From assembly GCA_900554645.1 (NCBI GenBank), contig USIE01000007.1, forward strand, positions 1 to 55,000: a DNA stretch of 55,000 nucleotides, written 5' to 3'. The notes below the pieces were generated by a model that had not been told where the DNA came from, ran no database searches, and saw nothing but the letters and a program-made list of their open reading frames with translations. Position 1 is the stretch's first letter; each line of letters begins with the position of its first letter. Made by a program: the position numbers and the translations under genes. Shown one piece after another: positions 135 to 10,760 of the stretch. Source of the stretch: an uncultured Collinsella sp. (GTDB taxonomy: Bacteria > Actinomycetota > Coriobacteriia > Coriobacteriales > Coriobacteriaceae).

Positions 135-325
135 TAGCATACCCAGGGACATATTAGACAGCTTTAAGTTGTCCGCAGACACTCAACTTGGACCTCAAGA
201 GCCAAATTTTGCTGCTACTAAATTTGTGACAGTACTCATATTTGGCATTTTTTGCCCACGACCCTCAAGGGACATGCGAATCGCACAACGCAGCCCCCAT
301 AAGAGCGTGGGGCAATTCGGCGGCG

Positions 326-1843
326 CTATACTAGCTCGTGCATAAGGTCGCAATTTCGCGCATATAGCTCATCAAAGATACGGCGGCGCGATGCGTGCAG
401 CTCATGAGCGTCCATATCAGGCTCGATCGTTTGCGCGACCCCAAGAACCCGGGCAAGCTCACCCCATGATGAATAGGCGCCGCCAGCAAGTGCCGCCATA
501 AGAGCATCGCCAAAACATGCGCCCACCGTAACCTTCGCAACCGAGACCTCACGACCGCAGACATCGGCAATCGCCTGCATCCATACCGGATTCTTAGTTC
601 CGCCGCCCACGAGCATGATGCGCTCGATGGGAAGCCCGTGCTCGCGCTCGATGATGTCGACATGAGCCGCAACAGTGTAGGCGATCCCTTCCAAAGCCGC
701 GCGGACCATATGGCCCCGGGTATGCCTTTCGGTCAGACCGAAGAACACGCCACGCGCCTCGGGATCGTTGAGCGGGGTGCGCTCGCCCGCAAAGTATGGA
801 AGACACAGCAGGCCATCTGCTCCAGGACCTACCTGCCCGGCATCGTGCGCCATGACCTCATAGGCATCGGGGCCGCCGGAGTGTTCGGCATCCATGACAT
901 CGCGGTACAACTCGCGTCGCAACCACGCCGTCAACGCATCTGCTGTATTGGTCCCGGCGCAGATGCCGTAGGTTCCGGGGATGATGAATGTCCCTGGCCA
1001 TAGACGAGCGTCATCGACCATATGGTCCGCCAAATAGATAAAGTAGGCCGTGCTCCCGAGTTGCACCATCATGTCCCCGGGGCAGAACACTCCAGTAGAA
1101 ATCGCCTCGGCGCCCGAATCGCCTGTTCCGACAAGCACCGGCGTATCCCTCGCAAGACCGGTTTCAACCGCCGCCCGATCCGTGATTACGCCGGCGATAT
1201 CGGTCGCCGCCATGACTTCGGCCATCTGGTCGGGACGGCAGAACCGCGCGCACCCGCGCTCATTAACCTGCCACGTCTCACGATCGTATAAGGGAAGGAA
1301 ATCCTCGGCAAGGTAACGGTCAATCGTAAACCTGCCGGTAAGCTTGGCGCATAGATAGGACGAAGCCGTAAGAAACTTCGCCGCCCGCTCATGGACCTCG
1401 GGCATATTCTCCTTAAACCAAAGGACCTTAGGGGCGATATCCGACGAACACGGATCGTGTCCAAAGAGCTGGCGAGCGCGATCGGGACCATATTCGGAAA
1501 GAAGCTCGTCAATCTGCGGCTTCGAGCGAGCATCGACCCCGTAGAGAATTGCCGGAGCCAAGGCGTGGCAATCTTCATCGACTGGCACGCAATCACAGCC
1601 CAAAGCCGACAACCCTACGCAGCGGATCTGGCTCGCCTCGATGCCCGCGCACTCGATAAGCTCGCGAGACAGCCGGCAAAAATCACCCCACCAAATCGCT
1701 TCTGTATCGTGCTGATACCAACCATCCTGAGGGTTCTCGGTTTCATGTTGGCAAGATGCCTGCGCCACAATTCGACACTCCGCATCAATTAACACGCCCT
1801 TGGACGCACTCGTTCCAATGTCGATGCCAAGATAGTACGGCAT
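326..1843 (-). CDS. FGGY-family carbohydrate kinase
   Basis: This is a 505-residue ATP-dependent sugar kinase of the xylulokinase/gluconokinase type, close to the usual FGGY length of about 500. The N-terminal phosphate-binding loop reads GIDIGTSASKG. A second ATPase motif GTGDSGAEAISTGV lies mid-protein, and the C-terminal domain carries VGGGTKNPVWMQ, typical for the adenosine site. The ATG at 1843 is preferred because GAGGGGAG precedes it by about 8 nt, while the GTG at 1852 overlaps that site. It starts 5 nt after the BtpA-like stop and is the last gene of the minus-strand locus. The substrate is unknown; the FrlD-like kinases upstream suggest the locus handles more than one sugar or sugar phosphate. 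The family call is firm, the substrate open. Confidence 0.9.
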   Translation of the reverse strand: MPYYLGIDIGTSASKGVLIDAECRIVAQASCQHETENPQDGWYQHDTEAIWWGDFCRLSRELIECAGIEASQIRCVGLSALGCDCVPVDEDCHALAPAILYGVDARSKPQIDELLSEYGPDRARQLFGHDPCSSDIAPKVLWFKENMPEVHERAAKFLTASSYLCAKLTGRFTIDRYLAEDFLPLYDRETWQVNERGCARFCRPDQMAEVMAATDIAGVITDRAAVETGLARDTPVLVGTGDSGAEAISTGVFCPGDMMVQLGSTAYFIYLADHMVDDARLWPGTFIIPGTYGICAGTNTADALTAWLRRELYRDVMDAEHSGGPDAYEVMAHDAGQVGPGADGLLCLPYFAGERTPLNDPEARGVFFGLTERHTRGHMVRAALEGIAYTVAAHVDIIEREHGLPIERIMLVGGGTKNPVWMQAIADVCGREVSVAKVTVGACFGDALMAALAGGAYSSWGELARVLGVAQTIEPDMDAHELHASRRRIFDELYARNCDLMHELV

Positions 1844-1848
1844 GCCGC

Positions 1849-2658
1849 TCACTCCCCTCTCGCGGCACGGGCGGCAGCCATGAACCGCGCGACCCGTTCG
1901 GCTTCGACAGGGGCGTCGAGCTTGCCGTCTCGCTTGAGGCAGGTACCGACAAACGCGCCATCATAATGCGAAAACACGTCTGCAACGGTATTCTCGCGAC
2001 ATCCCGTTCCACATACCACCGGCACATCGCCAACACGGACGCGCACCTCGTCGGCAAGCTCGCCCGAAGCGCCGCGCCCGGCAGCAGACCCGCCAATAAC
2101 AAGGGCGTCGGGTAGGCAGTTGAATACCAGCGAATCGGCAATATCGGGAGTCGATCGGTCGTTAAGGTACACCTCGCCCTCGCTTGTGATGAAATGGAAC
2201 ATCTTTAGGTCATCCAGACGCAGGGCGGCACGGCGGCGCATGGTGTGCGCAAAGTCACGATTGATCAGGCCAAGATCGCCAGCCCAGGCACCGCAGAAAT
2301 TGCAGCGTGTAAACTGCGCCTCAACGGCGGCGCACAGCTCGATCGTGGCATCGCCGTCATAAATAGCCTCTGCACCCCAAGGGGTCGAGAAATCTGCGGC
2401 AAGAGCTCCGATGACATGCCCCATAGCGGCAAGGGTCACTGCCGACACATGCTGCTCGTAGGGCATCGATAGCTCATTGGTGATCAGAATGCCGTCCACG
2501 CCACCCGACTGCAGCGCTTCGAGATCGCGCTTGGCGGCATCGATCACGCGCGAAACGCTGCCGCCCGGATAATACAGAGGATCGCCAGGCAGCGGCTGCA
2601 GATGCAGCATGCCAATTACCGGTTTCTCGGTCCCAAACATCGAAGCCATAAACGACAT
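1849..2658 (-). CDS. BtpA/SgcQ family protein
   Basis: A 269-residue member of the BtpA (photosystem I biogenesis-related)/SgcQ family, a TIM-barrel-like group of uncertain chemistry often found in sugar-phosphate operons such as E. coli sgc. Visible family signatures are the N-terminal KPVIGMLHLQPLPGDP, the segment GGVDGILITNE and the C-terminal VVCGTGCRENTVAD followed by DGAFVGTCLKRDG. The ATG at 2658 is chosen because AAAGGAG lies 7 nt upstream. Its stop overlaps the ribosome-binding site of the FGGY kinase gene, so the two are probably translationally coupled. The reaction is not known; an aldolase- or phosphatase-like role on a sugar phosphate is a guess from context. Confidence 0.88.
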   Translation of the reverse strand: MSFMASMFGTEKPVIGMLHLQPLPGDPLYYPGGSVSRVIDAAKRDLEALQSGGVDGILITNELSMPYEQHVSAVTLAAMGHVIGALAADFSTPWGAEAIYDGDATIELCAAVEAQFTRCNFCGAWAGDLGLINRDFAHTMRRRAALRLDDLKMFHFITSEGEVYLNDRSTPDIADSLVFNCLPDALVIGGSAAGRGASGELADEVRVRVGDVPVVCGTGCRENTVADVFSHYDGAFVGTCLKRDGKLDAPVEAERVARFMAAARAARGE

Positions 2659-2699
2659 GGTCAATCTCCTTTAGCTCGCCGACTCACAGACATCAACTG

Positions 2700-3128
2700 C
2701 TACTCACCCAGCACCTCAACGAACACTTTTCGCTTCTGAGGTCCATCGAACTCCGCAAGGTAGATGTTCTGGGCCCCGCCACATACAATGTGGCCGTCTT
2801 GAACGGGGAAGAAGCAGCTATTGCCGCAAATCATGCTCTTGATATGACCACAGGAGTTATTGCCCGTGGCACCATAGCTCGGCAAGAAATGAGCATGCGC
2901 ATAGGGGGCATCGGGCGGGGCAATGCGATCGAGCGTCTCCATGAGATCGGTCTCCACGCACGGAAGCCCCTCGTTCACCACGATGCCGCAAGTCGTATGC
3001 GACAAAATAATCGCTGCCAGTCCATCGGTCACCGCACTACGCTCGATGGCGGCATGCACATCTTCTGTGATATCGATGAACTGGTCGGGCGCCGTCGATA
3101 GATAGCTCAATGTCTCGAGTGTCACCAT
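2700..3128 (-). CDS. YjbQ/UPF0047 family protein
   Basis: A 142-residue single-domain protein of the YjbQ (UPF0047) family, whose E. coli member has weak thiamine-phosphate synthase activity in vitro. Family features are FIDITEDV near the N terminus, the motif LSHTTCGIVVNEG with a probable metal-binding His, and NSCGHIKSMICGNS later on. The ATG at 3128 sits 10 nt after AAAGG; an in-frame ATG at 3137 is too close to that site. The start overlaps the end of the upstream amidohydrolase gene, so the pair is coupled. It contains several Cys residues around the usual His motifs (TTC, NSCGH), which differ from the common TSA and NGHAH patterns. Its job here is not known; a role in sugar-phosphate chemistry is inferred only from the neighbourhood. 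Confidence 0.82.
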   Translation of the reverse strand: MVTLETLSYLSTAPDQFIDITEDVHAAIERSAVTDGLAAIILSHTTCGIVVNEGLPCVETDLMETLDRIAPPDAPYAHAHFLPSYGATGNNSCGHIKSMICGNSCFFPVQDGHIVCGGAQNIYLAEFDGPQKRKVFVEVLGE

Positions 3129-3129
3129 G

Positions 3130-3990
3130 TCACTCATCACCTTTCAGAAAACGCAGCGCCGTACCGGAATACAGATTCTCCCGCGCCTCATCGCGCATGG
3201 GCACAGTATCAAGCGCCCGCTTGAGCTTGAAGGCGCGGAAGCGTGGCGTATTGCTGGCAAACATCACCTGATGAGACAGGGCACGCTCATACCACAGCGG
3301 TCCCATATCGACGGTGAAGAGCCGCTGCATCATTTCTTCGGGCGAATCGATATAGGTAATAGAGGCATCCGTATAGCAATTGGGATACTTGAGCAGCATC
3401 GCCACGGTCTCGCGCACCCAGGGCCAGCCAAAGTGCGTCAGGTTAAAGCGCACATCCGGATGCGTTGCGATGGTGTGCTCAAACGCAAGCGGGTGGCTTC
3501 GCGAAAGCTCCGCACCCGGCTCCCAGGACATACCGGCATGGAAAACCACCGGCTTGTTGTAGCGCTCACAGAGCTTGTAGAGCGGCTCGGCCACGGCATC
3601 ATCGGGCGCAAAACCTTGCTTTGCCGGATGCAGGCAGAGCCCCTTGGCCCCCAGCTCGGTAAAGGCGCGCTCCAGCTCATCGGCGGCGCCACTCACCTGC
3701 GGGTCCACGCTCGCAAATCCCCATAGACGATCGGGGTGCGCAGCAACAAGCGCGGCAACCTGGTCGTTGGTGCCAAAGTGCCCGCCGCACGCCGTGGTCA
3801 CATCGAGCGGCATGAGCACGCTTTTCCGTACATCGCAGACATCCATCTCGGCCACGAGCTCGTCCCAGTCCATGGGGCCCATGTGCCCCATGCCAAACTC
3901 ACGCTCCCAAAAACCAAAGCCATCTGGCTCGTCGCCTGGCGTATAGATCTCGCCGTAGAGCATGGGCTGGACCAGCATATCGATTACCAT
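3130..3990 (-). CDS. Amidohydrolase family 2 (TIM-barrel) protein
   Basis: A 286-residue protein of the amidohydrolase_2 superfamily (decarboxylases and lactonases). Visible family features are a barrel strand with WGFASVDPQ, the metal-ligand candidate VVFHAG, the pattern FNLTHFGWPW, and a late VMFASNTPRF in the position of the usual GSDxP motif. The canonical N-terminal HxH is replaced by DMLVQP, and the late Asp of GSD is Asn, so metal binding may be altered or lost. AAAGGAG precedes the ATG by 7 nt. It is followed without a gap by the YjbQ gene. A lactonase or decarboxylase role is possible, but the missing ligands make any reaction uncertain. Confidence 0.75.
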   Translation of the reverse strand: MVIDMLVQPMLYGEIYTPGDEPDGFGFWEREFGMGHMGPMDWDELVAEMDVCDVRKSVLMPLDVTTACGGHFGTNDQVAALVAAHPDRLWGFASVDPQVSGAADELERAFTELGAKGLCLHPAKQGFAPDDAVAEPLYKLCERYNKPVVFHAGMSWEPGAELSRSHPLAFEHTIATHPDVRFNLTHFGWPWVRETVAMLLKYPNCYTDASITYIDSPEEMMQRLFTVDMGPLWYERALSHQVMFASNTPRFRAFKLKRALDTVPMRDEARENLYSGTALRFLKGDE

Positions 3991-4017
3991 CTTGTACTCC
4001 TTTCCAGGCTTTTGTTC

Positions 4018-4818
4018 CTAGTACGGTTCGAACGACCCAATGACTCGGGACGAAAGCTCGGCACCGGCATGCATGCACGCCGGCACGTCAAGCCCATCCA
4101 GTACACCCTTGGTGAATCCGGCGATATACGAGTCGCCGGCGCCCACGGTATTGACAACCTTCTCGGCCGGCACGATCCCACATTCATAGAAGCGCTCACC
4201 GTCATAGGCGATGCTTCCCTTCTCGCCAAGTGTGGCGACTGCCACGCGCGGGCCCAGCTCCTGCACATGGCGCACCCAGTCGCGCAGCTCCGCGCTATCC
4301 TCCTCAAACGACATAAAGGCATAGTCAACGTAAGGAAAATGGTTCTCACAGGCGTATTCGGGATCTTGACTGAACACCGAAAAGTCCATGACGACGGTCT
4401 TGCCTGCCTCGTGCCATTCGGGCAGCAGGTCTAAGCAGTTTCCAAACAGGTCGGTATGGATGACATCGTGCTCCAGGATAAATGCCCGGTCATCATCGTT
4501 TGGTCGGTACGTTTCCATGACACCGTCAATCGCTTCGAGATGCACGCGGTCGACGCCGTCCTTCAACGCCATGAGCATCACCGAGGTATCGCCGTCCTCC
4601 ACGCGAAGATGCGAGATGTCGAACCCCTCGGCAGCCAGCGCCTCGCGCATTTTGTCTCCGTACTCGTCCTTTCCGACGACCGACACTGCAGATACCGATA
4701 TGCCCATTCGCGCCAGGTGGATACCCCAGTCGATGCCATTGCCAGTCGGATAGAACACGCCGATGTTTTGGTACACGTCCGCACAGCAAAAGCCAGCTGC
4801 ACATGCTTTGATATCCAT
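4018..4818 (-). CDS. PfkB-family sugar kinase, FrlD-like paralogue
   Basis: A 266-residue ribokinase-fold kinase. The catalytic motif VNTVGAGDSYIAGF lies near the C terminus, with the general base Asp in GAGD. The N-terminal substrate motif reads PTGNGIDWG where FrlD proteins have PGGNAVN, which suggests a shifted sugar specificity. The segment MDFSVFSQDPEY matches the DFSD region of FrlD. The ATG at 4818 follows GGAGAAG; the in-frame TTG at 4833 lacks a site. A terminator-like hairpin lies 17 nt upstream, so this gene may be expressed from read-through or its own promoter. It is clearly a paralogue of the kinase at 4937-5800. It probably phosphorylates a related sugar or Amadori compound. 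Confidence 0.85.
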   Translation of the reverse strand: MDIKACAAGFCCADVYQNIGVFYPTGNGIDWGIHLARMGISVSAVSVVGKDEYGDKMREALAAEGFDISHLRVEDGDTSVMLMALKDGVDRVHLEAIDGVMETYRPNDDDRAFILEHDVIHTDLFGNCLDLLPEWHEAGKTVVMDFSVFSQDPEYACENHFPYVDYAFMSFEEDSAELRDWVRHVQELGPRVAVATLGEKGSIAYDGERFYECGIVPAEKVVNTVGAGDSYIAGFTKGVLDGLDVPACMHAGAELSSRVIGSFEPY

Positions 4819-4834
4819 AGTCTTCTCCAGCAAT

Positions 4835-4865
4835 CAAAAAGGGGCCCACCCAAGGCGAGCCCCTA
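4835..4865 (-). terminator. Intrinsic terminator/attenuator between two PfkB kinase genes
   Basis: On the minus strand AGGGGC pairs with GCCCCT (4841-4846 with 4859-4864, plus inner pairs), followed by TTTTT. It falls between the FrlD-like gene and its paralogue and immediately before the ribosome-binding site of the latter. It would lower expression of the six downstream genes relative to the upstream ones. Confidence 0.65.
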
Positions 4866-4936
4866 TCCGAATTCCGATGTAATCTAGCGTCAGTCAGCCA
4901 AGGCTTCAGCCCCAAGCCTCCCAGCGCTTTCTCAGG

Positions 4937-5800
4937 CTACTCGGTGATCGGAGCTCCGTGGCCCCAAGAGCCCTCCATGCCGCACACGGTCGAGGCAAAA
5001 CCTGCCGCAAAATCGAGCGCACGCTCAATGACCTCAGGTCCGTCCTCGCCGCGCTTGGCGGAATCGAGATAGCACATCAGGAATGAGGTCAGGAACGAGT
5101 CACCGGCTCCCATGGTGTCCTTCATGTCCGTTACGGGCTTTGCCAGCTGGCGATAGTAGCGCTCGCCGTCATAGGCGATGCAGCCCTCGGCGCCCGCCGT
5201 TGCGGACACAAAGCGCGGGCCCAAATTCTTAACCCAAGCGAGGCGCTCGCGAATCTCATCCTCACTTGCAGCATCGGCAGCGCTAAAGAAGGCGAAGTCG
5301 ACAAACGGGGCAATCTGCTCATAGTATTCATCGGTGGAATCGTCCGAGAAGTCAAACGATACGGTGATGCCTGCAGCCTTCAGCTTGGGGAGCTCGCGCT
5401 CGGTAAAGCAGTAGTTGCCCGAGTGGACTACGTCGAACTGCTTCATGTATGCCAGATCGAAGCGATCGAGCACATAGCGCGCATCGCCACGGATGCCGCC
5501 CTCGTTGGAGCCGAGGAATACGCGGTCGCCATCGACCACGGTCACACGCGCCGCGCCGTTCTCGCCAATAAGCTGCTCGCACTTAGCGAGCTCGATGCCC
5601 TCATCCTCGAGACTTGCAATCACATGCTCGGCAGCGGCGTCGTTGCCAAAGATGCCCATGTACGCGGAGCGCGCGGCACCGCACTTCTTGGCGTAAACGG
5701 CAAAATTCACCGCATTGCCGCCGGGATACATGGTATGGATATGCTCATAACGGTCGACGACGTTGTCACCGAACCCGAGCGCGTTAACGTTAAAAGCCAT
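4937..5800 (-). CDS. frlD: Fructoselysine 6-kinase-like PfkB kinase
   Basis: A 287-residue PfkB kinase resembling E. coli FrlD throughout: GFGDNVVDRYEH at the N terminus, PGGNAVNFAVYAKKCG as the sugar-binding motif, SFDFSDDSTDEYY in the middle, and the catalytic KDTMGAGDSFLTSF with GSWGHG near the end. FrlD phosphorylates fructoselysine at O6 in the cytoplasm; the product is the substrate of FrlB. GGAAGGATAGG precedes the ATG at 5800. The gene follows the FrlB-like gene by 14 nt, as expected for one operon. The exact Amadori substrate (lysine, another amino acid or another amine) cannot be read from the sequence. The gene symbol is a family-level assignment. Confidence 0.83.
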   Translation of the reverse strand: MAFNVNALGFGDNVVDRYEHIHTMYPGGNAVNFAVYAKKCGAARSAYMGIFGNDAAAEHVIASLEDEGIELAKCEQLIGENGAARVTVVDGDRVFLGSNEGGIRGDARYVLDRFDLAYMKQFDVVHSGNYCFTERELPKLKAAGITVSFDFSDDSTDEYYEQIAPFVDFAFFSAADAASEDEIRERLAWVKNLGPRFVSATAGAEGCIAYDGERYYRQLAKPVTDMKDTMGAGDSFLTSFLMCYLDSAKRGEDGPEVIERALDFAAGFASTVCGMEGSWGHGAPITE

Positions 5801-5814
5801 GGTACCTATCCTTC

Positions 5815-6783
5815 CTAGTACTCAACAACGCCCATGTAGCGGCGGAAGTCGGGGTCGTGATCGAACACCTTGCCGCGCGCTGCACGCAGCTCGCAGTTCA
5901 TAGCGTAGAACAGCACCGGATCCAGATAGGCACGAACGCTCGCCGGCACGGCCTCCATACCGTACTCCTTGGCATCAAGCACCATCAGCGTGTCGGTATG
6001 GGTCTCGAGGAACGCCAGGGCGCGCTCGTCCATAGGACGGCACTCGCTCGAGCCCATCTGCAAGAAGTAGAAGACGCCATCCTGGGTAGCCTCAAAGGGG
6101 CCATGGAAGTACTCGGCGGAGTGGATATAGCTGCAGTGCTGCCACTGCATCTCCATCAGCGAGCAGATAGCGAAGCCGTACGTCTGGCTAAAGTTGGGAC
6201 CGCTGCCCAGGATATAGAAGAACTCATGCTCCTGGCAAAGCTTGGCGAAGCGATCGCCCAGCTCGGCATTTACCTTTTCGCGTGCGGGAGGCAGAATCTT
6301 ATCCATTTCGGCAATACCGGCATACATGTCGGCGAGATCGGCGTAGCCCTCCTGCTGGTCGAGCAGCTCGGCCGCGAGCGACAGCGAGATACCGGCAGGA
6401 ACTTCGGCCTGCGGAACGCCCTCGCCCCACGGGTACACCCAGGTGACCCACTTGCCATTATCGATCTTGGAACCGGCGTTATCGGTCTGCGCGATCACCG
6501 TCGCGCCCGCGGCAAGGGCAATCTCGCAGCCCTCGACGACCTCGGGGGTATTGCCGCTGTGACTGCAGGCAATGACCAGAGACTTCTCGCCCAGGCGACG
6601 GGGACGCATGATGTCGAACTCACGGGCCGTATAGATATACGAGGTGAACGTCGTCGCCTCGCGCTGCAAGAGCTCATGGGCCGGGATCAGATCGATCATG
6701 GAGCCACCGCAGGCGATCCAGTAGACGCTGTCGAACTTGCCCTTCTCGGCAATTGCTTCCTTAATCAGATCATGTGCGTTCAT
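5815..6783 (-). CDS. frlB: SIS-domain deglycase, FrlB-like
   Basis: A 322-residue protein with two SIS (sugar isomerase) domains. FrlB splits fructoselysine 6-phosphate into lysine and glucose 6-phosphate. Visible matches include YWIACGGSMIDL, the SIS signature CSHSGNTPEVVEG, YFHGPFEATQDGVFYF, and the C-terminal RRYMGVVEY, close to the RRYYGGLVEY end of E. coli FrlB. The ATG at 6783 follows GGAAAGGAAC; an upstream in-frame ATG at 6831 has no site. It lies between FrlC-like and FrlD-like genes, the classic partners of this enzyme. A glutamine-fructose-6-phosphate transaminase is excluded by the absence of a glutaminase domain. Related deglycases for glucoselysine-6-P (GfrF type) remain an alternative. 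Confidence 0.85.
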   Translation of the reverse strand: MNAHDLIKEAIAEKGKFDSVYWIACGGSMIDLIPAHELLQREATTFTSYIYTAREFDIMRPRRLGEKSLVIACSHSGNTPEVVEGCEIALAAGATVIAQTDNAGSKIDNGKWVTWVYPWGEGVPQAEVPAGISLSLAAELLDQQEGYADLADMYAGIAEMDKILPPAREKVNAELGDRFAKLCQEHEFFYILGSGPNFSQTYGFAICSLMEMQWQHCSYIHSAEYFHGPFEATQDGVFYFLQMGSSECRPMDERALAFLETHTDTLMVLDAKEYGMEAVPASVRAYLDPVLFYAMNCELRAARGKVFDHDPDFRRYMGVVEY

Positions 6784-6849
6784 GTTTAGTTCCTTTCCAG
6801 CTTGGCCGGCCATGCAGGACGTGTCTTGCATGGCCGAGCAAAATCTTAT

Positions 6850-7701
6850 CTAGTCAATCAGATACTTCTCGAAGGCGGCCATGTTCTTGGCATCTGCCGC
6901 CGCCGGATCATCGAAGTAGCGACCGTCCGTGATTTCCTGGCCCAACATGCCATCGAAACCATGGGCGTTGAGCGTGGCGACGAAGGCATCCATATCGTGC
7001 TTGCCGTCGCCCCAGACCAGATGGCCATAGGGATCGCCGTCGATAAAGTGCATCTCGTGGATCGCACCGTCGCCAAATGCGGCAAACCAGTCCTCGAGCG
7101 ACTCGCCCGCAACGCCCATTGCGGTCGTATCGACCATAGGCTGCAGGTACGGACTCGCGACCTCATCAATCATGCGCTTGGCATCGGCGACGGTCGTCAC
7201 AAGGTTGCTCTCCTCGGGACGCAGGCTCTCCATCGTTAGCACCAGACCGTGCTCGCCGGCATACTCCGCCAAGATGGATAGGTGTTCGCGGCTGCGCTTC
7301 CACGCCTCTTCGCGATCCTCGTCCCAGTCGCCCCAACCCGAGTTTACGGACATGCGGTCGCACCCCAGCACCTCGGCAAGCTCGATGCCATGCTTGAAGT
7401 ACGCTAGGCTCCGCTGCTCATGGAGCGGCTTACGAGCGCAATACTGCCATGGGTAGACCACGTTCTCGGGACAGAGCGTCCGATAACGCAGACCACGGTC
7501 GGCGGCCTTTTTCGCCAGAACCTCGGCCTCAAAATACCCAGTGTGATCGAGCGTCACATGGGGCTCGGCGCACCACAGCTCGATGGACTCAAAGCCTAGG
7601 CGCTGTTGCGTATCCAAAAAATAGTCGAGCGACCACATGATGTAGTGGATGTTCATGCCCGCGATCTGCTCGCGACGCAGCGTCGGTTTGGTTTCAGGCA
7701 T
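6850..7701 (-). CDS. frlC: FrlC-like epimerase (AP-endonuclease 2 fold)
   Basis: A 283-residue TIM-barrel protein of the xylose-isomerase-like/AP endonuclease 2 family. It resembles FrlC, which interconverts fructoselysine and psicoselysine. Features: LGFESIELWCAEPHV, the metal-site pattern LTMESLRPEESNLVTT (FrlC has LEPLTPYESNVV), MVDTTAMGV, and MHFIDGDPYGHLVWGDGKHD near the C terminus, which supply the Glu, Asp and His ligands expected for a divalent metal. GGAGG lies just before the ATG and overlaps the end of the upstream amidohydrolase gene. Its place beside FrlB- and FrlD-like genes supports the assignment. It may act on an epimeric Amadori compound. Confidence 0.8.
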   Translation of the reverse strand: MPETKPTLRREQIAGMNIHYIMWSLDYFLDTQQRLGFESIELWCAEPHVTLDHTGYFEAEVLAKKAADRGLRYRTLCPENVVYPWQYCARKPLHEQRSLAYFKHGIELAEVLGCDRMSVNSGWGDWDEDREEAWKRSREHLSILAEYAGEHGLVLTMESLRPEESNLVTTVADAKRMIDEVASPYLQPMVDTTAMGVAGESLEDWFAAFGDGAIHEMHFIDGDPYGHLVWGDGKHDMDAFVATLNAHGFDGMLGQEITDGRYFDDPAAADAKNMAAFEKYLID

Positions 7702-7702
7702 G

Positions 7703-9286
7703 CTAAACCTCCTTATTTCGGTCGAACACGATACGTCCGTCCGACATGGTCATATCAACAGCAAGGTCACGAGCATCGCGGTAGTCAAGGCCAAACACAT
7801 CGCGATCGAGCACACAGATGTCGGCAAGCTTACCGGCCTCGAGCGTCCCCAGCTCATCCTCGCGCATCAGGTCATATGCGCCCCCTGCCGTCCATGCACG
7901 AAGGAGCTCGGCAAGCGTCAGCGTATTACCTTCATTCACGGACAAACCGTCGGCAAAGAAACCGCCGCATGCACTAAATACTGATTCGCCCAGGCTCGGA
8001 ATCAAGAGCGGAAGGTCGGTGCCGCAGCACACCGTACATCCCGCGTCTTCCATACCGCGACGGTTCCAGCTGCGCTGCAGTCGTGCCTCGCCGATCTGCC
8101 GACGCATCATCGACAGACAGTCCTCGCGTTTATCGAGCGTGAGGATCTGGGGGTAGACCTCGCAGATTCCGCCCAGCTTGCCAAACAGGGCAAGGTCTTC
8201 CGGATCAGAGTTCTCGAGGTCGGTAATCGCATGGCGTCGAAGCATGACTCCGTGTTCATCTCGCGGCAGCGAAGCATACAGCGCAACGGTGTGGCGAACG
8301 GCGCCGTCACCCTGACAATGAAGCGAGTAACGGAAGCCCTCGGCATCAATCGCGCGCAGCTCGTCCTCAATCAAACCCCACTCGGGCTCCTCGACAACCG
8401 TCTTGCCGGCAGCCCCTGCATCGGCCGTCTCCTCATAAGGGTCGATCATCTCGGCAAGCCCTGCCCACACACCGCGATCGGTCATGCGGTTGAAGCCCGA
8501 GAAACGAACAAACGGTCCCTGGAAGCGATCGCGCGCCGCACGGGCATAGGGCAGATTCGCCCCGGCGCCCACCGGCTGCGACATCATGGAGACGCGAACC
8601 GTCAGCTCGCCAGATTCCTCACGGCGTGCCATCTCATCGGCAAATCCGTAATAGTCGTCGAAGGCCATCTCTTTGATAGCCGTGACACCGCGAGCGTTCA
8701 GCATCGCCATGTAATCAGAATACCCGGCGCGTACCTCGGGAAGCGCCAGGAGGTCCCGCATCATACGCCAGGTCTTCTCGGCGTAGCAGGCCTCGGGCGT
8801 AAAACCATAGCGCTCGCTGGCGGCGGCGTTGAGAACGCACGTCTCGGCACCCGGAGTAAAGCAAACAACAGGAACGTCTCCGAAGGCGTCGTCGAGCGCT
8901 GCCGCCGTTTTTTCATTCTCGGCGCCTTCGGCGAGCGATGCGGGAAGGTCGTGCCCAAAGGCGGCGGCACAATCGAGATGGGCATCCTTCCACAAACGCA
9001 GAAGCGCTACCACTTCGTCGACGTCAGAGGCTTCGGATAAGTCGGCTCCCAAGCTCCGCAACGCCCAGCCCGTATAGAACGTATGCACATCGACCAAGCC
9101 AGGCATGACCGTTCTGTCGCCACAATCGATCACCTCATCTGCCTGGGCGAGAAACGAGTCTGCCTCGCCAGCGCTACCGACGGCTTCAATCCGATTGCCG
9201 CGTACCGCGACAAAACCTTCAAACGGCTGGTCTTCCGTACCGGTGAAGACGCTCTTGGACGTCAGCACCGTCAAACGATCAGACAT
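7703..9286 (-). CDS. YtcJ-type metal-dependent amidohydrolase
   Basis: A 527-residue amidohydrolase of the YtcJ/LAF3 type. It has an N-terminal composite beta domain (VFTGTEDQPFEGFVAVRGN), then TVMPGLVDVHTFYTG in place of the usual HxH motif (here HTF), FRYSLHCQGDGAVRHT with the His ligands, CGTDLPLL with the catalytic Asp, and a C-terminal GTLEAGKLADICVLDRD typical of the family. The ATG at 9286 is chosen because AAGGAGG precedes it; a longer reading to 9412 runs into the carrier gene. The HxH-to-HTF change may alter metal content. In an Amadori locus it could remove an acyl or amide group before the sugar steps, but no substrate can be read. Confidence 0.87.
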   Translation of the reverse strand: MSDRLTVLTSKSVFTGTEDQPFEGFVAVRGNRIEAVGSAGEADSFLAQADEVIDCGDRTVMPGLVDVHTFYTGWALRSLGADLSEASDVDEVVALLRLWKDAHLDCAAAFGHDLPASLAEGAENEKTAAALDDAFGDVPVVCFTPGAETCVLNAAASERYGFTPEACYAEKTWRMMRDLLALPEVRAGYSDYMAMLNARGVTAIKEMAFDDYYGFADEMARREESGELTVRVSMMSQPVGAGANLPYARAARDRFQGPFVRFSGFNRMTDRGVWAGLAEMIDPYEETADAGAAGKTVVEEPEWGLIEDELRAIDAEGFRYSLHCQGDGAVRHTVALYASLPRDEHGVMLRRHAITDLENSDPEDLALFGKLGGICEVYPQILTLDKREDCLSMMRRQIGEARLQRSWNRRGMEDAGCTVCCGTDLPLLIPSLGESVFSACGGFFADGLSVNEGNTLTLAELLRAWTAGGAYDLMREDELGTLEAGKLADICVLDRDVFGLDYRDARDLAVDMTMSDGRIVFDRNKEV

Positions 9287-9296
9287 CGCGACCTCC

Positions 9297-10760
9297 TTAC
9301 GCCGGAAGCATGCCGGAGATGGCGGTAATGACCAAGCCAAACACGACCATGAAGATGAAGAACTTCCAGATGGTCTTCCACCATTGGCCAAACGAGATCT
9401 TTGCCACGGCAAGGCCCGCCACCGTCATACCTGCCACGGGGCTAATGGTGTTAATGGTCTGGTTGGCAAACTGCAGCGCCGTTACGGCGGCTTCGGGGTT
9501 GAGGCCCATAAGCTCGGTCAAAGGACCCATGACAGGCATGGTAAGCGCGGCCAGGCCGGAGCTCGAAGGAACCAGGAAGGACAGGAGGCCAAGGACAACG
9601 TACATGAACGTGGTGTACACGGCGGCAGGGGCTCCAGCAAGCAGAGTGGCAAGTGCCTGAAGGATGGTGTCGATAATCATGCCGCCCTCGGCGATGACCA
9701 GAATGCCGCGAGCGATACCGATAACGACGGCTGCGTAGGCAAAGTCGGCAAGACCCTTAACGAACTCATCGGCGATGGTCTGCTGGTCAAGACCGCCCAG
9801 GATACCGGCGAGCAGCCCCATGCCAAGGAACACGGCAGAAATCTCGTTCATATACCAGCCCTGCGTAACAAGACCCCACACGATAAGCGCCATACCACCG
9901 GCAAAATCAATCAGCACGAGCTTCTGGCGAGTGGTGAACTCTTCCTCGATGGAAGCATCGGTCACGGAGAACTCAATGCGCTTGAGTTTGTCGTCCTCGA
10001 ACGTAACGGACGACTTGGGGTTCTTCTTGACGCGCATGGCATAACGCATGGCCCATGCGATGCCGGCGGCGGTGAAAATAACCCATGCAACGGCACGCAA
10101 CCACAGCTGCGGGTTGCCCTCGATGCCAATGATGCCCTGCGCGATCAAAACGTTGAACGGGTCAATCGTCGAGGCGCAGTAGCCCAAGTTGGGACCGAGG
10201 AAGCAGATGATAAATGCCGTCATGGAGTCATATCCGATGCCCATCATGATGGGGATGAAGATGGCATAGAACGGCAGGGCTTCCTCAGACATGCCAAACG
10301 TGGTGCCGCAAATGGACAACAGCGTCATCGTGATGGGAATAATCAGAATATCTTTGTTTTTGAGCTTCTTGATTACTCGGCTCATACCGGCGTTAAGCGC
10401 GTTGGTCTTGGTGATGATCGCGAACGAGCCGCCGATCAGCAAGACGAACGCAACGACGTCGGCGGCCTCTTGAATACCCTTAGTAGGCGCCTGCAGGACC
10501 GCAAAGATATCTTGGCCCAGGTTAACGGTCTCGCCGGTCTCGGAATCGGTATAGTTCTTATCGACCTGTTCATAGGTTCCGGCAACGGCGACTTCGCGCT
10601 CGCCTGCCGCAGTCGAGATCGTCTTGCGCTGGTATTGGCCAGAAGGAACGACCCAGGTTAAAACTGCAAAAACCACGATCAGCAAGAACATGATCGTATA
10701 GACGTGCGGTAATTTGAATTTGAAACGTCTGTTTGTCTTCTTCGCCTTCGTATCTGACAT
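9297..10760 (-). CDS. YfcC/DcuC-superfamily membrane carrier
   Basis: A 487-residue integral membrane protein with about 11-13 hydrophobic segments, of the YfcC (C4-dicarboxylate carrier-like, ArsB/NhaD superfamily) type. An N-terminal helix (IMFLLIVVFAVLTWVVPSGQY) is followed by an extracellular loop, and two inverted halves contain ICGTTFGMSEEALPFY and FLVPSSSGLAALTMPVMGP, the family's re-entrant motifs. The ATG at 10760 has GGAGG upstream; a longer frame to 10820 has no site. It is the first gene after the operator-bearing promoter and so probably imports the locus substrate. The characterised E. coli frl locus uses an APC-type carrier (FrlA) instead, so this is a different solution if the substrate is an Amadori compound. 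Confidence 0.88.
   Translation of the reverse strand: MSDTKAKKTNRRFKFKLPHVYTIMFLLIVVFAVLTWVVPSGQYQRKTISTAAGEREVAVAGTYEQVDKNYTDSETGETVNLGQDIFAVLQAPTKGIQEAADVVAFVLLIGGSFAIITKTNALNAGMSRVIKKLKNKDILIIPITMTLLSICGTTFGMSEEALPFYAIFIPIMMGIGYDSMTAFIICFLGPNLGYCASTIDPFNVLIAQGIIGIEGNPQLWLRAVAWVIFTAAGIAWAMRYAMRVKKNPKSSVTFEDDKLKRIEFSVTDASIEEEFTTRQKLVLIDFAGGMALIVWGLVTQGWYMNEISAVFLGMGLLAGILGGLDQQTIADEFVKGLADFAYAAVVIGIARGILVIAEGGMIIDTILQALATLLAGAPAAVYTTFMYVVLGLLSFLVPSSSGLAALTMPVMGPLTELMGLNPEAAVTALQFANQTINTISPVAGMTVAGLAVAKISFGQWWKTIWKFFIFMVVFGLVITAISGMLPA

Follow-up and report, generated by a model that had tools for sequence, protein, structure and literature searches.

A 55,000-nucleotide stretch of an uncultured Collinsella sp. 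genome (assembly GCA_900554645.1, contig USIE01000007.1), hereafter the window, contains ten genes that a first-pass annotation had described as an expanded Amadori-type catabolic locus. All ten are present and intact in our open reading frame (ORF) and Pfam analyses, and they form a single minus-strand run reading from 10760 to 326. A GntR/HutC-type regulator gene (11724–10981, minus strand; top NCBIfam matches GntR-type, all below cut-off) lies outside the span of that annotation and forms the head of the run, with two HAD genes upstream of it. As cut, the ten genes overlap or are spaced by 1–35 bases, save for a gap of 103 bases between two PfkB-type kinase genes. We use this gap to divide the run into part A (YfcC, YtcJ-like, FrlC-like, SIS, and PfkB1) before it and part B (PfkB2, AH2, YjbQ, BtpA/SgcQ, and FGGY) after it; a GntR gene also accompanies part A in related loci. 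Pfam matches are far over the cut-off for nine of the ten proteins and narrowly over it for the SIS protein (26.8 versus 25 bits). The best NCBIfam models agree with the Pfam families for most genes, AH2 having no such model and the YtcJ-like protein weak ones. By Pfam, neither phosphotransferase system (PTS) components nor an asparaginase is found among the ten. The FGGY, PfkB2, YtcJ-like, and YfcC proteins were analyzed with starts one to five codons off the coordinates given here.

Part A and known Amadori pathways

The carrier that begins part A (9297–10760, minus strand, as for every gene of the run) is of the DcuC/YfcC type, with 369.7 bits to PF03606 and 327.9 bits to the NCBIfam YfcC model, below its cut-off of 500; by Pfam and NCBIfam it is not the amino-acid-permease-type carrier FrlA. 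It is followed by a YtcJ-like Amidohydro_3 protein (7703–9286; PF07969, 128.7 bits) in which phenylalanine takes the place of the second histidine of the HxH motif in all 32 aligned sequences that have a residue at this position; a lysine, two histidines, and an aspartate are kept. The FrlC-like protein (6850–7701), an AP_endonuc_2 TIM barrel (PF01261, 120.5 bits) and probably an epimerase, has FrlC as its top NCBIfam model at 96.5 bits, below the curated cut-off of 305. For the SIS-domain protein (5815–6831), the nearest solved chains are 3eua (6.6e-57), whose deposition title reads putative fructose-amino-acid-6-phosphate deglycase, and 9otj (1.2e-53). The glutamate of its MEMQW motif is kept in the window protein and in 27 of 27 aligned sequences, and is alanine in the variant chain 9otu. 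The earlier label 'FrlB-like' holds in so far as the protein groups with these deglycases, but it misses the curated NCBIfam FrlB cut-off (106.4 versus 430 bits); these resemblances make it a probable sugar-amine-6-phosphate deglycase. The last gene of part A encodes the FrlD-like kinase PfkB1 (4937–5800).

Judged by its sequences, part A resembles the working of frl/fra Amadori pathways, yet it differs from the frl set of Escherichia coli, and its reactions here would be analogous rather than established. The E. coli system consists of FrlA, B, C, D, and R and serves fructoselysine and psicoselysine. Shared with it are a SIS deglycase-type protein, an FrlD-like kinase, an FrlC-like protein, and a GntR regulator, whereas a YfcC carrier stands in for FrlA, the SIS and FrlC-like proteins miss the family cut-offs, and the YtcJ-like protein and part B are extra. 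The Salmonella fra system for fructose-asparagine, as described in excerpts of PMC4072780, has a Dcu homolog (FraA), a SIS deglycase, a sugar kinase, and a GntR regulator; it is like our locus in its Dcu-family carrier, SIS deglycase, PfkB-type kinase, GntR regulator, and an amide-hydrolyzing enzyme. Unlike our locus, it uses an asparaginase (fraE) and has no frlC, whereas the Collinsella run contains the YtcJ-like Amidohydro_3 protein, an FrlC-like gene, and part B. Sugar-amine phosphate deglycases are also a feature of the gfr systems for fructoselysine and glucoselysine in Salmonella and Faecalibacterium (excerpts of PMC12675984 and PMC12136445), but the mannose-family PTS subunits of those systems are absent among the ten genes, and separate kinases would phosphorylate here instead. 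The fructoselysine cluster of Intestinimonas AF211 likewise follows a kinase and deglycase route, but with an ATP-binding cassette (ABC) carrier, and the excerpted main text of PMC4697335 has no mention of 'amidohydrolase'. Among titles and abstract starts of the Amadori-pathway literature, we found nothing resembling the combined set of parts A and B. A sentence in PMC10255453 cites a report that Collinsella intestinalis degrades glycation products from the diet, and the original 2019 study, on this species and a food-processing product, possibly describes part of the locus already.

The genes of part B

PfkB2 (4018–4818, with a possible TTG start at 4833) is, by its sequence, a relative of FrlD in which TGN..D replaces GGN..N. 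Of 34 distinct PfkB2 sequences, 33 have TGN..D and one did not match the search pattern; GGN..N is found in 24 of 24 PfkB1 sequences and in 10 of 14 PfkBd sequences, the other four again not matching the pattern. The changed substrate motif that the first-pass annotation had noticed in the second kinase is real and conserved. Its description of both kinases as FrlD-like is borne out by their top match, the NCBIfam fructoselysine-6-kinase (FrlD) model, but only the variant PfkB2 passes the cut-off of 247 (264.1 bits), and PfkB1 fails it (186.7 bits).

AH2 (3130–3990; PF04909, 126.3 bits) belongs to the Amidohydro_2 family, whose metal ligand set consists of HxH, a β5 histidine, and a β8 aspartate. 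The window protein has LxQ and asparagine at ligand positions, and among 35 distinct sequences complete there, HxH is present in 22, the aspartate in eight, and all four ligands in eight. Because the metal ligands are not conserved, the label 'amidohydrolase' may mislead for AH2; the same goes for the 'two amidohydrolases' of the earlier description, since the YtcJ-like protein has the phenylalanine noted above. The AH2 reading frame overlaps by 8 bases with that of YjbQ (2700–3137; UPF0047, PF01894; TIGR00149, 101.9 bits, cut-off 67.75). Aligned with four solved relatives, the module YjbQ has GGAQ instead of GTWQ, plus an insert, and the alanine of GGAQ is present in 36 of 36 sequences, features that mark it as a distinct subfamily of UPF0047. 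We rejected a housekeeping role for YjbQ, the module copies being such a subfamily and adjoining AH2.

The next gene encodes a BtpA/SgcQ family protein (1849–2664; PF03437, 178.7 bits; TIGR00259 over cut-off). In E. coli, SgcQ is encoded beside sugar-phosphate genes in the PTS-based sgc system. The predicted structure of BtpA (predicted local distance difference test score, pLDDT, 95.3) is a phosphate-binding-type TIM barrel, and its top fold matches come from the same group, with 2-keto-3-deoxy-6-phosphogluconate/6-phosphogalactonate (KDPG/KDPGal) aldolase among them. KDPG aldolase carries its Schiff-base lysine on the sixth strand. Identity to the aligned KDPG/KDPGal chains is 13–19%, and two lysines kept in 62 of 62 BtpA sequences, K14 and K244, are located off that strand. 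An aldolase assignment from the fold alone was not accepted, since epimerases, thiamine phosphate synthases, decarboxylases, and isomerases have this fold as well. The last gene encodes an FGGY carbohydrate kinase (326–1843; PF00370, PF02782) that has xylulokinase as its nearest curated model and falls below the XylB equivalog cut-off (278 versus 380). A literature search found no paper pairing BtpA with YjbQ and, in titles and abstract starts, no established pathway role for YjbQ/UPF0047 or BtpA/SgcQ.

A hairpin plus T run (4864–4840, minus strand; 11 pairs, 8 of them G-C) is located at the border of the two parts. Its stem is the longest among 11 terminator-like matches found over 12 kb; shuffled sequence gives about as many (10.9). 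A similar hairpin is found in Collinsella relatives (L057, L058, L061, and L070), where folding of the whole gap gives z values of −4.6 to −6.0. The window's own gap gives a z value of only −1.8, and in L075, which is more distant, the gap lacks the hairpin (z 0.4). The hairpin is possibly a terminator or attenuator.

Separability and recurrence of part B

In a sample of 43 Collinsella genomes (G001–G043), 13 have a SIS gene at least 96% identical to that of the window. Part B is whole at the locus in five of these (G001, G002, G008, G024, and G031); in G031, the block is divided between the ends of two contigs, where PfkB2 and AH2 are truncated and a stop codon falls in the edge stretch of AH2. 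The contig of G033 runs out after PfkB2 and the beginning of AH2. In the other seven (G004, G007, G009, G012, G018, G032, and G034), PfkB1 is directly followed by the TatD-like gene that elsewhere comes after FGGY. BtpA and AH2 are absent genome-wide in G004, G007, G009, G012, and G034; for G018 and G032, the absence covers the locus only. Part B is a separable accessory module: it is accessory rather than obligatory because it is absent at the locus in seven of 13 genomes and occurs without part A elsewhere. We rejected a single obligatory pathway on these grounds, part A being absent from Olsenella-type loci. The first-pass annotation had inferred that the extra genes widen the pathway to other glycated amines or to a different carbon-side product, and of the two outcomes that it named as telling against this, one is what these seven genomes display. 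The neighborhood comparison that it proposed thus gives a mixed answer, with the set recurring beside Amadori-type genes but the block missing at the locus in over half of the Collinsella genomes that keep part A. Because such close genomes differ so cleanly in part B, Collinsella provides a natural with/without comparison.

Several related arrangements occur in the genus. In Collinsella sp. BA40 (G022; L071:8558-10713 / L089), a remnant of part B directly follows PfkB1 and consists of BtpA and a fragment of FGGY. The 43 genomes have as many as 10 SIS-domain matches each, GlmS-like ones among them; these include a separate GntR-SIS pair at 73–77% identity (L017–L023) and, in L072 and L073, another part-A-like set that lacks part B. 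Just downstream of FGGY in the window (229–246, minus strand) is a short inverted-repeat element resembling a miniature inverted-repeat transposable element, with ends like CCAAATATGAGTACTGT, and such an element also follows PfkB1 in L062–L067, six of seven loci examined that lack part B.

Beyond the genus, we searched genome contigs with a BtpA profile and mapped all of the best 80 of 96 relatives' loci. An FGGY-family gene is present in 36 of 36 of these loci with BtpA at least 42% identical, in six of 17 with 36–41% identity, and in none of 27 below 36%. The FGGY gene is of the module type (at least 40% identity) in 34 of the 36, and L111 and L120 have only a 29% one. AH2 turned up in 22 of the same 36 loci, PfkB2 in 20, and YjbQ in 18; many of the loci end at contig edges, and ORF picking hid some genes. 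The loci are not independent events, because several are near-duplicates (L096/L097, L112/L113, and L116/L117). The distances of BtpA, FGGY, AH2, YjbQ, and PfkB2 correlate at 0.88–0.95 over 25 loci, values that none of 999 permutations reaches, in a comparison uncontrolled for species descent.

YjbQ and AH2 are still more tightly linked. Some YjbQ match is present in 25 of 26 genomes picked for their BtpA loci and some AH2 match in 24, with strong ones in 23 each; one genome (G232) has weak or broken matches only. Of the 36 YjbQ matches in these genomes, all 28 at E ≤ 1e-30 adjoin AH2, and none of the eight weaker ones does. In the fetched loci, where some genomes are counted twice, 45 of 45 YjbQ ORFs above 80 bits lie at most 100 bases from AH2 on the same strand. 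Remote YjbQ copies (25–32% identity) are found elsewhere in G218, G220, G222, and G227. Across 197 Coriobacteriia, nine genomes have a close BtpA (E ≤ 1e-69; next match 1.6e-36) and 10 a close AH2 (E ≤ 1e-61; next match 9e-18); eight have both, versus 0.46 expected, with P 8e-12 on the assumption of independent genomes, which does not hold. Among 344 genomes of the order of G231, a close AH2 is present in five. BtpA and FGGY are in the same locus in G635 and G609 and in another locus (L116) in G231, but not in G619; G782, which also has a close AH2, has one locus that ends with an FGGY.

Part A and part B occur together, complete or nearly so, in Enorma, Fournierella, Gemmiger, members of the Clostridiales and Oscillospiraceae, Ruminiclostridium sufflavum, and Caproiciproducens galactitolivorans, in gene orders that vary among these genomes. 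The strongest single piece of context evidence for part B is L264, a second locus of C. galactitolivorans, in which BtpA, HAD-like, PfkB2, FrlB, FrlC, AH2, YjbQ, FrlA-like permease, GntR, FrlD, GntR, and FGGY genes follow one another on one strand. Its FrlB (471 bits), FrlC (477), and both FrlD-type kinases (383 and 389) exceed the NCBI cut-offs, and its FrlA-like permease falls below (572 versus 800). In L076, the one Olsenella locus scanned, FrlC (445) and both FrlD-type kinases (376 and 386) pass, and Vagococcus L110 has an FrlA-like permease (530, cut-off 800). From the make-up of these three loci, part B has therefore joined two differently built Amadori-type backgrounds. With the set recurring beside Amadori-type genes in another phylum, and interleaved with them in L264, the expanded Amadori-type locus of the earlier description is a fair name.

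Olsenella-type loci carry part B without YfcC or a part-A-type SIS gene. We considered whether AH2-YjbQ-BtpA-FGGY replaces the deglycase there and rejected this, as a SIS gene is on the same contig: proteins 26–29% identical to the window's SIS are encoded ≈11–21 kb from AH2 in G149, G156, G224, G225, G226, G229, and G233. Several module loci among L299–L306 (Olsenella-type and relatives) span stretches of at least 20 kb with further SIS, YtcJ-like, and FrlC-like genes; the scanned cases also have an SDR, esterase, or ROK gene. Collinsella BtpA is 53–65% identical to that of one set of Oscillospiraceae and relatives, 43–49% to that of Olsenella, a member of its own class, and 42–47% to that of other Clostridia. 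Because it is nearer to the Oscillospiraceae set than to Olsenella, these identities suggest transfer between phyla.

A possible second branch of sugar-amine catabolism

We propose that the locus is an frl/fra-like operon with a recurring accessory module, and that sugar-amine catabolism gains from the module a second branch, one that depends on a kinase; to this proposal we give an even chance. Because part B sits with Amadori-type genes in quite different bacteria, it probably opens a further breakdown route, one not described before. In the first route, YfcC would import a sugar-amine (Amadori-type) conjugate of the sort that arises when food is heated, and the YtcJ-like protein would probably trim off an acyl or amide group. 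Epimerization would fall to the FrlC-like protein, PfkB1 would phosphorylate the conjugate, and the SIS deglycase would split the phosphate into hexose 6-phosphate and a free amine. In the second, PfkB2, an FrlD-derived kinase with an altered sugar-binding motif, would phosphorylate a related conjugate outside the reach of the first route. AH2 and YjbQ would act as one unit on the phosphorylated product, FGGY would rephosphorylate a ketose-like product, and BtpA would isomerize or cleave the result for central metabolism. Two other PfkB-AH2-YjbQ arrangements have an aldolase at this point. L268 holds AH2-YjbQ together with DeoC, an ABC carrier of the sugar type, and a PfkB resembling tagatose kinase (229 bits, cut-off 420). 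In L262:4122-11489 and L263:9894-16296, the genes after PfkB-AH2-YjbQ encode a LacI regulator, a glycyl radical enzyme and its activase, and a fructose-6-phosphate aldolase. We infer every part B reaction, the part A reactions in this organism, and the order of steps; as the substrate of part B, our first guess would be a sugar-amine that derives from a pentose or is epimeric in some other way. A second branch would lengthen the list of heated-food compounds usable by gut anaerobes, and the recurring unit with Amadori-type genes offers a concrete pathway for testing YjbQ/UPF0047 and BtpA/SgcQ. In a bolder form that we regard as doubtful, AH2 and YjbQ would be two halves of one new sugar-phosphate-processing enzyme whose amidohydrolase fold no longer depends on a metal site, and together with the altered FrlD kinase before it and FGGY and BtpA after it would carry out SIS-independent breakdown of phosphorylated sugar-amines. 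If so, both YjbQ (UPF0047) and BtpA/SgcQ would gain a physiological role.

Several observations weigh against a second branch. Part B is missing from the seven Collinsella loci described above, and the genome-wide co-occurrence of BtpA and AH2, strong in Coriobacteriia, is weak in Oscillospirales, where three of 245 genomes have a close BtpA, three a close AH2, and only G220 both. The PfkB2-AH2-YjbQ triad occurs in G020 and G149 without any BtpA match; conversely, BtpA has FGGY nearby and no AH2 in Leucobacter (G236, also without YjbQ) and Chloroflexi (G237, with a weak YjbQ). The distance correlations may owe something to species descent. The sixth strand of the BtpA model (residues 187–190) has no lysine, and its fold is common to epimerases, synthases, decarboxylases, and isomerases. 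The aldolase pattern comes from two arrangements; in five more AH2-YjbQ loci without BtpA (L261, L267, L272, L315, and L317), which are partly annotated, no aldolase was seen.

Part B might instead be a clean-up module, one that serves no separate nutrient but disposes of, or recovers, harmful side products of the main route, for example stalled phosphorylated sugar-amines or the deoxyosones arising from their decay. Such a role would fit with its dispensability where part A is kept, with the HAD-type phosphatase-like gene that adjoins BtpA/FGGY in L098 and L110, both of them domain-scanned, and in L100, L112, and L264, and with the two HAD genes upstream of GntR in the window; the possible terminator would hold its expression low, and an excerpt of PMC12755824 describes one fra pathway intermediate, 6-phosphofructose-aspartate, as toxic. 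However, the free-standing module loci L104, L110, L264, and L315 carry their own carriers and regulators, which speaks against clean-up because a mere clean-up set needs none, and two extra kinases would be costly for detoxification. We consider this explanation unlikely, and find slightly less likely again the idea that two unrelated pathways lie side by side, with part B degrading a free sugar (e.g., a rare ketose) and sharing only its neighborhood with part A. The clean presence or absence of part B behind PfkB1, the possible terminator between the parts, and the sugar-type partners of AH2-YjbQ in L268 agree with mere proximity. Against it stand the recurrence of the association across two phyla and under varying gene orders, the interleaving with FrlB, FrlC, and FrlD homologs in L264, the FrlD-like nature of PfkB2 itself, and the FrlA-like and amino acid carriers of module loci. 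The NCBIfam name of YjbQ, secondary thiamine-phosphate synthase, might point to an ordinary frl/fra locus with unimportant passengers, YjbQ acting in thiamine metabolism and the others being annotation noise. This we hold to be very improbable, given that the module YjbQ forms its own subfamily beside AH2 in every strong match, with the more remote copies sitting elsewhere in four genomes.

BtpA also occurs in another gene context. In an Anaerolineaceae locus (L145:8276-17608), two BtpA genes stand in tandem and are accompanied by genes for a GntR regulator, a PfkB kinase, an ABC carrier of the Bmp type, and a protein of the PTE family; L140, L146, and L147 have a gene order similar to that of L145, the one locus of the four that was domain-scanned.

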